A stretch of DNA of 64,000 bases from Acidobacteriota bacterium (GTDB lineage: Bacteria; Acidobacteriota; Blastocatellia; Pyrinomonadales; Pyrinomonadaceae): the NCBI GenBank assembly GCA_019242475.1, contig JAFAVK010000035.1, positions 1-64,000 of the forward strand, given 5' to 3'. The notes under the pieces are model-generated. The model searched no databases, was not told the DNA's origin, and saw only the letters and a program-made list of their open reading frames with translations. The position numbers and the translations under genes were made by a program. The stretch's first letter is position 1. Each line of letters begins with the position of its first letter. This document shows, piece after piece, positions 19,779 to 60,948 of this stretch.

Positions 19779-20411
19779 ATGATTTTCGAATTGCCAAAAC
19801 TCTACCCCATCACCGACCGGCGTCTGTCGGGGCTCACGCACGCGGAGCAGGTGGCGCGCCTGTGCGAGGGCGGGGCGCGGCTGGTGCAGTTGCGTGAGAA
19901 GCTGCTGCCGGCGCGCGCGTTCTGCGCGGAGGTGGCGGAGGCTTTGAAGGTGGCGCGCGCGTTCGGCGCGAGGTTGATTGTTAACGACCGTGCCGACGTG
20001 GCGATGTTGGTCGGCGCGGACGGCGTGCATCTGGGGCAGGACGACATGCCGCCAAGGGCGGCCCGCCTGGTTTTGGGCGGGGGGAAGGTCGTCGGGTTCT
20101 CGACGCACGGCGTCGAGCAGGCGGCGGCGGCCGCGTCGCTGCCGGTCGATTACGTCGCCATCGGGCCGGTCTTCGACACCTCTTCGAAGGAGAACCCCGA
20201 CCCGTCCGTCGGATTAGAAGGGGTCAGGCGCGTGCGCGAGGCGGTCGGACGGGCCGTCAAACTGGTCGCCATCGGCGGCGTCACGCCCGAGACCGCCCCC
20301 TCCGTCCTCGAAGCCGGCGCCGACTCGGTCGCCGTCATCGGCGCGCTCGTCGCCACGCCCGACCCGGCCGAAATCACACGCCGCACGCGCGTCTTCCTCG
20401 CCCACCTGTGA
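19779..20411 (+). CDS. thiE: Thiamine-phosphate synthase
   Basis: Joins hydroxymethylpyrimidine diphosphate and thiazole phosphate to give thiamine phosphate, in the cytosol. This is a 210-residue TIM barrel with the family landmarks in order: LYPITDRRL, VQLREK, LIVNDRADVAMLVGADGVHLG, the Gly/Ser/Thr/His motif (VGFSTH), YVAIGPVFDTSSK and AIGGVTPE. Other thiamine genes are not next to it. It stands alone between an inverted-repeat element and the palindromic array. No thi-box riboswitch is apparent upstream. Confidence 0.93.
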   Translation: MIFELPKLYPITDRRLSGLTHAEQVARLCEGGARLVQLREKLLPARAFCAEVAEALKVARAFGARLIVNDRADVAMLVGADGVHLGQDDMPPRAARLVLGGGKVVGFSTHGVEQAAAAASLPVDYVAIGPVFDTSSKENPDPSVGLEGVRRVREAVGRAVKLVAIGGVTPETAPSVLEAGADSVAVIGALVATPDPAEITRRTRVFLAHL

Positions 20412-20454
20412 CCCTCAAAGGCTCAGATTTCAGCAAAATTCCACCAAAAAGGTA

Positions 20455-20757
20455 GGAAATACCTTCTTTGAGGAGGAGTATTCCTCCTTCGGGAAGGAAC
20501 GTTCCTCCTTCGAGAAGGAGAATTTCTTCCGCGAGGAGGAACATTTCTCCTTCGGGAAGAAAAATTTCTCCTCGGAGGAGGAATTTTCCTCTTCGGAGGA
20601 GGAACGTTCCTCCTTTGGGAAGGAAAATTTCTCCTTCGGGAAGGAACGATCCTCCTCAAAGAAGGAATTTTCCTTCCCCGGGGAGGAAATTTCCTTCTTT
20701 GAGGAGGATCGTTCCTTCTCCGGGAAGGAAAATTCCTCCCCAAAGAAGGAAATTTGA
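20455..20757. repeat. Tandem array of 21-bp imperfectly palindromic units
   Basis: About fourteen degenerate copies of a 21-bp unit with the form CCTCCTTC-GGG-AAGGAA plus an AT-rich joint (AATTT, ACGTT). Each unit is near self-complementary, so either strand could form a row of small hairpins. Because 21 is seven codons, several frames stay open and encode RRNFPSR-like heptapeptides on both strands, which I take as a by-product. Three more degenerate units trail to about 20818. It lies 296 bases before pilT. Confidence 0.85.
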
Positions 20758-21053
20758 GGTTCTGAGGTGCAGATTTGTACCTCCGAGGAGGAAAGTTGAG
20801 GTTCCGAGGCCCAAAATCGGAGTTTCAAACGGCTGTCGCGGGGCTCGATTCAGGGCGTCCGGTTTACGGGAGGGGAAAGGCGGCGTCAAATAAGCCAACA
20901 GATATAAAGAGGTTAAGAAGTTTTAACTTGCTTTTACGATTCCGCCCTGACATTATAAAAAAGGTCGCCGGGGGCAGTGCCCCGTTCCCGGCTTCCGAAG
21001 CAAAGTCCAGCCCCCGTTCTTTACCGCCCGCCACACGGAGTCGCCATTCCCGC
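20758..21053. other. Leader between the palindromic array and pilT
   Basis: No gene seen. It contains the decayed end of the array, an AT-rich patch near 20895-20965 that may hold a promoter, and a short GC hairpin (GGGGCAGTGCCCC) at about 20972-20984. No -35/-10 pair is good enough to call. Confidence 0.4.
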
Positions 21054-22286
21054 ATGAAATATTTCGACCTGCCGCCCGTCATCGAGCAGATGCTCAAGGC
21101 CGCCGAAGCCATCAGCGACCTGAACTTCTCAGTCGGCCAGACGCCGCAGGTGGAGGTCAACGGCCAGCTGCGCCCCGTCCAGCCGTTGGGGTTGCAGAAG
21201 CTGACGCCCTACCAGACCGAACTAATCGCGATGACCCTGCTGCAAGGCAACCCGGACGCGGCGCAGAGGCTCGCGCACACGGGCTCGGCCGACCTCAGCT
21301 ACAGCCTCCCCTCGCGCACGCGCTTCCGCGTCAACGTCTTCCAGCAGCGCGGCACCTACTCCATCGTCATGCGCGTCATCCCGACCGAGATACCGACGCT
21401 CGAATCCCTCACCCTGCCGAAGCAGCTCGCCGACATCGCCGAGCTGCGCAACGGCATCGTGCTCGTGACGGGGCCGACCGGCTCGGGCAAGTCCACGACG
21501 CTCGCCGCCGTCATTGACCTCGTCAACCAGCAGCAGCACTACCACATCGTCACCATCGAAGACCCGATAGAATTCCTGCACACGCACAAGCGCTCGACCA
21601 TCAACCAGCGCGAGGTGGGCTCCGACGCGAAAGACTTCCCCTCGGCGCTGCGCGCCGCGCTCCGGCAGGCGCCGAAGGTCATCCTCATCGGAGAGATGCG
21701 CGACTACGAGACGACCGAGATCGCGCTCGAAGCCGCCGAGACGGGCCACCTCGTCCTCTCCACGCTCCACACCATCGACGCCTCGAAGACCGTTGACCGC
21801 ATCATCGGCCTCTACCCGAAGAACGAGGAGCAGGTCATCCGCACCCGCCTCGCGCAGACGTTCCGCTACATCGTCTCGCAGCGTTTGATCCCGCGCGCCG
21901 ACAGCGGCGGGCGCGTCGCGGCGGTCGAGGTCTTGAAGTCCACGCCGCGCACGCGCGAGTACGTCGCCGCGGGCGAGTCGGACGGCAAGTCCCTGCTCGA
22001 CGCGATGCGCGACGGCCGCCTCGACGGCATGCAGGACTTCGACACCGTCATCAAGGGGATGATCGAGGAGGGGACGATCACGCTCGAAGACGGCCTCTCG
22101 TTCGCCACGAACCCCAACAACCTCCAACTCGCGCTCAAGGGCATGTCGGCCACCGACGACTTCCGCCCGGCCGAGAGCACCCCCTTCACCGCGAAGCAGC
22201 GCACCGCCGCGCCCCCGCCGCGCGCCTTCCCCACCGCCCCCGCGCGCCCCGCGCCCGGCGGCTCCATGCTCGACATGATCGAATAA
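21054..22286 (+). CDS. pilT: PilT-like twitching-motility/retraction ATPase
   Basis: Hexameric ATPase that disassembles type IV pili at the inner membrane. The start at 21054 fits the family N-terminus. Upstream in-frame codons would run into non-coding repeat. Landmarks of the 410-residue protein are the N-terminal PAS-like domain, Walker A GPTGSGKST (140-148), the Asp box in TIEDPIEFLH, the atypical Walker B LIGEMRD (211-217) and the His box TGHLVLSTLHT (230-240). The tail after about 360 is longer than in E. coli or Neisseria PilT and Pro/Ala-rich. No other pilus genes are adjacent. It could be a PilU-type paralogue. Confidence 0.9.
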   Translation: MKYFDLPPVIEQMLKAAEAISDLNFSVGQTPQVEVNGQLRPVQPLGLQKLTPYQTELIAMTLLQGNPDAAQRLAHTGSADLSYSLPSRTRFRVNVFQQRGTYSIVMRVIPTEIPTLESLTLPKQLADIAELRNGIVLVTGPTGSGKSTTLAAVIDLVNQQQHYHIVTIEDPIEFLHTHKRSTINQREVGSDAKDFPSALRAALRQAPKVILIGEMRDYETTEIALEAAETGHLVLSTLHTIDASKTVDRIIGLYPKNEEQVIRTRLAQTFRYIVSQRLIPRADSGGRVAAVEVLKSTPRTREYVAAGESDGKSLLDAMRDGRLDGMQDFDTVIKGMIEEGTITLEDGLSFATNPNNLQLALKGMSATDDFRPAESTPFTAKQRTAAPPPRAFPTAPARPAPGGSMLDMIE

Positions 22287-22290
22287 ATCA

Positions 22291-22409
22291 AGTAGCCAGT
22301 CGTCAGTCGTCAGTAGACAGTAGGCTCCGCTTTACTGACGCTGACGATAACAACCGAACGGTTCGCAACGGCGAATGCTTTTCTACTGACTACTGTCTAC
22401 TGACTACCT
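22291..22409. repeat. Heptad-arm inverted repeat (CAGTAGA type)
   Basis: Arms at 22291-22323 and 22383-22409 are built from 7-bp CAGTAGA/CAGTCGT-like units. A 15-bp core (22309-22323 and 22390-22404) is perfectly complementary. The loop holds about 60 bases. The element lies between pilT and the zinc-ribbon gene. Confidence 0.75.
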
Positions 22410-31194: not shown

Positions 31195-31638
31195 ATGATC
31201 GACTGGCTGACGAAGACGATTCACGGGTGGGAGTTTTCGTGGTGGCAGGTGCTCTTCGGGGCGGTGCTGTTCGTCGTCACCTTCGCCGTCAGCAGCGCCG
31301 CCGTCTCGTTCGTGCTGGTCAAGCTCCCCGCGAACTACTTCCACTCGTCGCACGAGCGCGAATTCCTCGTCCACCGCCACCCCGTCCTGCGCGCCGTCGG
31401 CATCGTAGCCAAGAACGTGCTCGGCTTCGTGCTGGTCATCCTCGGCGTCATCATGGCGGTGCCGGGCGTGCCGGGGCCGGGCGTGCTCTCGATCCTGCTC
31501 GGCATCATGCTGCTCGACTTCCCCGGCAAGCGCGGGCTCGAAACGCGCATCGTCAGCCGGCCCCGGGTCAACGGCGCCGTCAACGCGTTGCGCGCGCGCT
31601 TCGGCAAGCCGCCGCTGATGCTGGATGAACCGCAGTAG
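31195..31638 (+). CDS. PGPGW family transmembrane protein
   Basis: A 147-residue inner-membrane protein. One helix lies near residues 15-42 and a second hydrophobic stretch near 73-110 contains GVIMAVPGVPGPGVLSILLG, the hallmark of the small PGPGW family. The N-terminal part starts with an amphipathic WLTKTIHGWEFSWW segment. The function of the family is unknown. It is last in the glcD/HD run, and the heptad-arm repeat begins at its stop codon. Confidence 0.8.
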   Translation: MIDWLTKTIHGWEFSWWQVLFGAVLFVVTFAVSSAAVSFVLVKLPANYFHSSHEREFLVHRHPVLRAVGIVAKNVLGFVLVILGVIMAVPGVPGPGVLSILLGIMLLDFPGKRGLETRIVSRPRVNGAVNALRARFGKPPLMLDEPQ

Positions 31639-31753
31639 GCAGCAGGCAGACGGCAGTAGGCAGTCGCCCCGCGTGACGGGAGTTGAAAGTTTAAATCCAA
31701 GTTCTCGACGGCAGGGCGCTGAACTGCCTACTGCCGTCTGCCTACTGCCTACT
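31632..31753. repeat. Heptad-arm inverted repeat (GGCAGTA type)
   Basis: Arms at 31632-31664 and 31722-31753 consist of GGCAGTA/GGCAGAC heptads and pair with a single mismatch over about 31 bp. The 57-base loop is clearly homologous to the loop at 60148-60204. The left arm overlaps the last codons of the preceding gene. Confidence 0.8.
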
Positions 31754-60633: not shown

Positions 60634-60831
60634 ATGCCGGAGCGAAAAGAGTTGGCCGGCCGCGACGACGAGCGGCAGGCGCGCGGCCGCAAAGGCCCCT
60701 CGACCCAGGCGCGCAGCGAGAGGAAGCGGCGCCCCGCCGGCAAAGGCGGCTCGAACGCCTCCCGCGCCCTCCCCAAAGTCGGCAAGCGCGACCCCGCGCG
60801 CGGCGACACCTCGGGCGACGGGCTGCATTAG
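60634..60831 (+). CDS. Small basic hypothetical protein
   Basis: A 65-residue Arg/Lys/Gly-rich protein (ERKELAGRDDERQARGRKG...) probably disordered and able to bind nucleic acid. A strong GGAGGAGAAG site precedes the ATG. It is in operon position with the GntR gene. No family is recognised. Confidence 0.6.
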   Translation: MPERKELAGRDDERQARGRKGPSTQARSERKRRPAGKGGSNASRALPKVGKRDPARGDTSGDGLH

Positions 60832-60833
60832 GT

Positions 60834-60948
60834 CAGTAGGCAGTAGGCAGATGGCAGTAGGCAGTTCAGAGCCTTAAAGACGAAGCCTTGAGTTGACCCT
60901 TCAATGTTCTCAACGCGGGGCGGCTGCCTACTGCCTACTGCCTACTGC
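60834..60948. repeat. Heptad-arm inverted repeat (GGCAGTA type)
   Basis: Left arm 60834-60866 and right arm 60922-60948 consist of GGCAGTA heptads. The loop ends in ACGCGGGGCGGC and resembles that of the element 700 bases upstream. The right arm enters the end of the convergent DedA-like gene, giving it a GKAVGSRQ tail. Confidence 0.8.

Follow-up and report, generated by a model that had tools for sequence, protein, structure and literature searches.

A tandem array of 21-bp near-palindromic units between thiE and pilT in a Pyrinomonadaceae genome, a putative 3'-end element recently amplified in one species

The DNA analyzed here, a stretch of 64,000 nucleotides that we call the window, belongs to an uncultured bacterium that places within Pyrinomonadaceae (Acidobacteriota) by its pilT relatives, and carries a tandem repeat array in the spacer between thiE and pilT (Table 1). 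The initial annotation had described around fourteen units of 21 bp here, and this was correct: TRF reported period 21 at 20480-20739 (12.4 copies, 70% matches, score 173) and listed periods of 42, 63 and 84 bp as higher orders, of which those of 63 and 84 bp reach 20470-20755, and the spacing is exactly 21 bp across 13 register copies. The edges of the array are degenerate units, which lengthen the register beyond the core. The period is 21, not 7, and the units are contiguous, with no unique spacers between them, so that the array is not CRISPR-like, as had been stated. Rfam matched no family in the window, and a phage or plasmid origin of the array was rejected because neither collection gave a match to it.

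Table 1. Positions of the genes, repeats and predicted signals discussed in the text
Feature	Position	Strand	Basis or remark
thiE (thiamine-phosphate synthase)	19779..20411	+	ORF; Pfam TMP-TENI, E=5e-58; its 3' end precedes the array
Full 21-bp register with degenerate edge units	20435..20829 (approx.)	.	Sequence; TRF 20470-20755 and 20747-20809; edge units of other arrays
Core array, ~14 head-to-tail 21-bp units	20455..20757	.	TRF; spacing, pattern and dyad tests
Putative pilT promoter TTGCTT-N17-CATTAT	20928..20956	+	Read from the sequence; 71% alignment block with L208
pilT (type IV pilus retraction-type ATPase)	21054..22286	+	Pfam T2SSE, E=9e-48
Heptamer hairpin (AGTAGTC)n...(CTACTGA)n, directly behind pilT	22291..22407	.	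Example of the genome's other 3'-end element
Heptamer hairpin	31632..31753
Heptamer hairpin	60825..60948

A unit of the window array consists of AANNTT, a 7-nt half-site (CCTTCTC, CCTCCTC and similar), one N and the inverted half-site, and this layout gives two dyads per unit, 10.5 bp apart. The half-site beside AANNTT is degenerate and can be written as (C/G/T)(C)NN(C/T)T(C/T). On its best dyad axis the array is 0.64 complementary versus 0.24 off the axis, which is significant after column shuffling, and the folding z-scores against shuffles are -11.6 on the plus strand and -11.0 on the minus strand; the earlier proposals of almost self-complementary units and of a chain of hairpins were thus both borne out. 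The pattern (AANNTT-N15)x3 matches the window 3 times, and 100 shuffles gave 0 matches. The left edge of the register (20435-20459) holds CCAAAAAGG, which resembles the edge units of several other arrays of this AANNTT type; five of these (L027, L108, L109, L103 and L113) close with a unit that has CCTTTTTGG/CCAAAAAGG and could be a boundary module. A fixed array-end module with a CCTTTTTGG-like unit was not established, because the genome pattern search gave 12 matches versus 6 for the reversed control.

Arrays of this kind recur throughout the genome to which the window belongs (G000). About ten related arrays were found by BLASTN on other contigs, the pattern (AANNTT-N15)x3 has 159 matches versus 11 for the reversed control, and among non-coding repeats those of period 21 cover the most bases (TRF, 0.8 Mb sampled). 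The 0.8-Mb sample and targeted loci together provided 44 period-21 arrays, 39 of which are palindromic at p<=0.01 in the column-shuffle test; the other five comprise three coding-type repeats and two arrays with lower scores, in one of which (L114) a register shift can be seen by eye. Two long contigs, covered over most of their length, contain 6 clear arrays in 388 kb, which extrapolates to ~95 arrays per 6.1-Mb genome; the figure is rough, as one of these contigs was already known to contain an array. At least eight unit families can be distinguished, without evident similarity in sequence among them (for example TTCCTTCTCGGAGAAGGAANN, TTCCGGTTCGGAACCGGAANN, TTGTGAGGGCTGACAAGTCAC, ATCTGCGTTAACGCAACTACC, GTGGGAATGCCATTCCCACGC and CTATGTAGACTCACATAGAGG), and several of them are found at two or more loci. 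Despite this diversity all families have the unit length, the dyad symmetry and the array size in common, and array length is confined to ~150-380 bp. The arrays of G000 are intergenic, bounded in size, diverse in sequence with a constant architecture, and tied to gene 3' ends.

Concerning this last point, the arrays that were placed comprise 14 in convergent, 21 in tandem and 3 in divergent spacers, a distribution that departs from expectation by spacer length (p=0.0005) and by spacer number (p=0.006); genes were called with a simple codon-usage script, so that single placements may err. The ratio of convergent to tandem placements agrees with a per-3'-end rule (p=0.48). Between tandem genes the array stands closer to the upstream stop codon than to the downstream gene (~152 bp), and the median distance to the stop codon is 81 bp over all 3' ends. 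The three arrays between divergent genes are L026:3031-3238, L171:3917-4261 and L176:4011-4377, the second depending on a weak 127-aa ORF call.

Long inverted-repeat hairpins have a similar distribution. They were found in 15/42 convergent (36%), 29/175 tandem (17%) and 1/41 divergent (2%) spacers of G000, with 0 in shuffled sequence, and are commoner in a congener (G003), with 13/28 (46%), 36/121 (30%) and 4/41 (10%), respectively. At three of four orthologous sites where G000 has an array, at least one congener has a long hairpin; no comparable hairpin stands beside the G000 array at L088 and L111, and at the other such sites a hairpin is also present. The arrays thus fill the positional niche that long hairpins with inverted-repeat arms fill, both in G000 and in its congeners. 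Heptamer arrays of G000, like those in the window, nearly always pair into such hairpins: in ~0.95 Mb we have found 58 inverted neighbor pairs and 0 direct ones. Families of these heptamer hairpins include AATGATG, AGTAGGC, CCGTGAA and AAGGCAA, and heptamer hairpins are depleted between divergent genes (p=0.001). Behind genes of congeners there are near-perfect hairpins, with arms of ~30-35 bp that far exceed ordinary intrinsic terminators (e.g., L272:1855-1985, L278:1340-1490 and L284:1800-1900).

The amplification of the 21-bp arrays is recent and largely species-specific. The congeners G001-G003 have no 21-bp array at four further array loci, where flanks are mostly 84-93% identical; G003 has no period-21 array longer than 100 bp in 0.58 Mb, and smaller random samples of G001 (0.14 Mb) and G002 (0.17 Mb) contain no clearly palindromic one. 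One targeted locus of G001 carries one related palindromic array.

The arrays are best read as BIME-like elements of fold-back or phased-dyad type, situated at the 3' ends of genes, that have recently been amplified in a single species. We assign a probability of about 0.45 to the view that the window array is one of ~95 arrays so amplified and is a putative fold-back 3'-end element, which probably closes off thiE in front of it instead of controlling pilT. Behind thiE it would be a bulky structure that folds back where the transcription unit ends, and it may act there as a transcription barrier, or as a boundary of mRNA 3'-end or topological kind, comparable to the suspected action of REP/BIME, keeping thiE transcription off the pilT promoter. 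Adjacent units share deviations, with an excess of direct similarity at lags of one to three units, as is expected from slippage or unequal exchange. From this within-array similarity and that between loci, we infer that an array starts from a seed at a new 3' end, and that slippage or unequal exchange, one to three units at a time, then extends and homogenizes it.

REP/BIME elements are clusters of short palindromic units in intergenic regions, for the most part downstream of coding regions, where the neighboring ORFs are unidirectional or convergent; they are suspected to take part in termination, in mRNA stability and in supercoiling (PMC3733652). The present arrays share their position downstream of ORFs, between convergent or unidirectional genes, and in 39 of the 44 sampled cases the short imperfect palindromic unit. 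They differ in being contiguous head-to-tail 21-mers, whereas BIMEs are alternating-orientation dimers with linkers; unit sequence differs completely between families, and the consensus units of the window family, by inspection, have no GTAG/CGTC tag. A search for the RAYT/TnpA_REP transposase (Y1_Tnp, PF01797) gave 0 matches in G000, an assembly that is 91% complete, and the control matched in five known genomes; a RAYT/REP origin was rejected on this basis. Because RAYT is missing, the units are contiguous and the window family has no such tag, we do not regard the array as a BIME proper, and the best reading is a 3'-end element that may work like a BIME without being one.

Several observations do not sit easily with a fold-back element. 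In tandem arrays the sense RNA is more stable than the antisense in 11 of 22, i.e., evenly, and selection on the RNA strand was therefore rejected. Perfect 7-nt arm matches are rarer than after within-array shuffling (41 versus 62 on one axis and 56 versus 70 on the other), unlike a hairpin selected for maximal stability; dyads with four or more mismatches are also rarer and those with 1-2 mismatches commoner, and there is no deficit of perfect matches between arms that lie one to four units apart. This depletion of both perfect and poor local dyads means that the dyads are kept near-perfect, not perfect. It is the narrowing of the mismatch distribution that is informative; plain compensatory covariation inside units was rejected, its mean effect being tiny. 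Terminator-like matches (a G+C-rich hairpin followed by a T-run) exceed expectation, 8 versus 1.9, an excess that the periodic AANNTT may itself create. Furthermore, the 3'-end bias alone could be tolerance, with promoters being spared, and array and hairpin coexist at some sites. We lean towards action at the DNA level in view of the strand symmetry and the avoidance of perfect dyads, and towards a transcription boundary in view of the position and the replacement of hairpins; the candidate modes of action are RNA fold-back, a cruciform, and a helically phased site for a protein or topoisomerase.

The tolerance of a selfish repeat at 3' ends is a serious rival. The array would then be a neutral or selfish quasi-palindromic minisatellite that arises by seeding, slippage and hairpin-templated repair and survives where it is harmless, behind genes, with no cellular function. 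We regard this as rather unlikely, while the species-specific burst seen against the congeners, the local homogenization of units, the absence of the RAYT transposase and the sparing of divergent spacers, which tolerance predicts, all speak for it. By itself it explains neither why apparently unrelated families have 21 bp, dyad symmetry and bounded size in common nor the avoidance of perfect as well as poor local dyads; the enrichment of convergent spacers, as the per-3'-end rule predicts, also counts against it.

Protein binding by the array is possible. A dimeric DNA-binding or nucleoid protein (or gyrase) could occupy one dyad per two helical turns and build a filament or topological boundary at 3' ends; this agrees with a unit of 21 bp, which as 2 x 10.5 bp makes two helical turns, with the exact spacing over more than 10 units, with the two dyads per unit, and with the degenerate half-site adjoining AANNTT, the strand symmetry and the preference for 1-2 mismatches over perfect dyads. 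We consider it unlikely all the same, because at least eight apparently unrelated half-site families would need several proteins or one that reads shape. Similarly doubtful is a broader proposal, in which the repeat class is defined by architecture and not by sequence: deliberately imperfect 21-bp palindromes with two dyads, in ~10-16 units, would have been rebuilt with different half-sites at the 3' ends of ~100 genes in one species, in place of the long hairpins that serve congeners as boundaries, and would be maintained because selection acts on the geometry of the DNA (two helical turns), by way of a protein that reads shape or of a topological mechanism.

Cis-regulation of pilT by the array, as considered in the initial annotation, is very improbable. 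The array does lie upstream of pilT in the same orientation, but the relatives examined, 30 in all, have the same thiE-pilT order and no array in the spacer, which has a median of ~145 bp there and measures 642 bp in the window. Homologues of pilT in Pyrinomonadaceae are 66-85% identical, and the relative with the 85% identical pilT (L208) retains a block starting GTTAAAAGTTTAACTTGC and is missing the array. Between the array and pilT, 97-126 bp upstream of the ATG, we have found a promoter-like block with a TTGC(T/G)T-like -35, N17 and a -10-like hexamer, which was read from the sequences and falls below the threshold of a generic scan. Similar hexamers with equal spacing recur in a like place in five array-free relatives (L208, L194, L199, L191 and L197), so that pilT appears to have a conserved promoter-like block of its own beyond the array. 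Sister arrays, in addition, lie behind the 3' ends of many unrelated genes, and on these comparative grounds control of pilT is not supported. A heptad-repeat protein can practically be discounted and was rejected: both strands are indeed open, as had been noted, in frames of 106-141 aa, but several open frames follow from 21 = 3x7, sister arrays differ in which frame stays open, and no Pfam family matched the ORFs of the array, so that no conserved repeat protein was seen.

Other known repeats resemble the arrays in part. STRRs are heptameric intergenic tandem repeats of cyanobacteria, with a few families across a genome. Heptameric direct repeats such as TAACTGA in Beggiatoaceae and cyanobacteria are likewise intergenic short tandem repeats in a few families across the genome (PMC4679880). 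The present arrays are also intergenic short tandem repeats with families spread over the genome, and differ in their period of 21, not 7, and their near-palindromic units; the true heptamer arrays of G000 are paired into hairpins. Intrinsic (Rho-independent) terminators are similar in lying just behind stop codons and in strong fold-back potential, but the arrays are 150-380 bp of repeats as against one hairpin, strand-symmetric and without a dedicated U-tract. Plasmid iterons are tandem direct repeats of about two helical turns, a likeness in arrangement and unit length; the arrays differ in occupying ~95 chromosomal loci, in their many sequence families and in being near-palindromic.

If arrays and long hairpins are interchangeable at 3' ends, this genus would offer a natural experiment on the construction and replacement of gene boundaries in bacteria, and also a case in which extragenic palindromes spread without RAYT, the transposase that is normally invoked. 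The geometry of 21 bp and two dyads, constant over apparently unrelated sequences, makes the selected trait, be it RNA hairpin, cruciform or helical phasing, directly testable.

A family-wide spread of palindromic arrays was rejected, because the 21-bp arrays of other Pyrinomonadaceae are seldom palindromic. The AANNTT pattern has no match in the isolate Pyrinomonas methylaliphatogenes K22, and its matches in other Pyrinomonadaceae include 7-bp repeats (AAAGTTC). The 21-bp arrays of other genera are ~140-240 bp long and mostly non-palindromic (L116-L121 in G026, L124-L130 in G087, L163/L164 in G025, and L212:5132-5333), and TTCAAATGANNGNATCGGA-like units are common to L164 and L212, across genomes.
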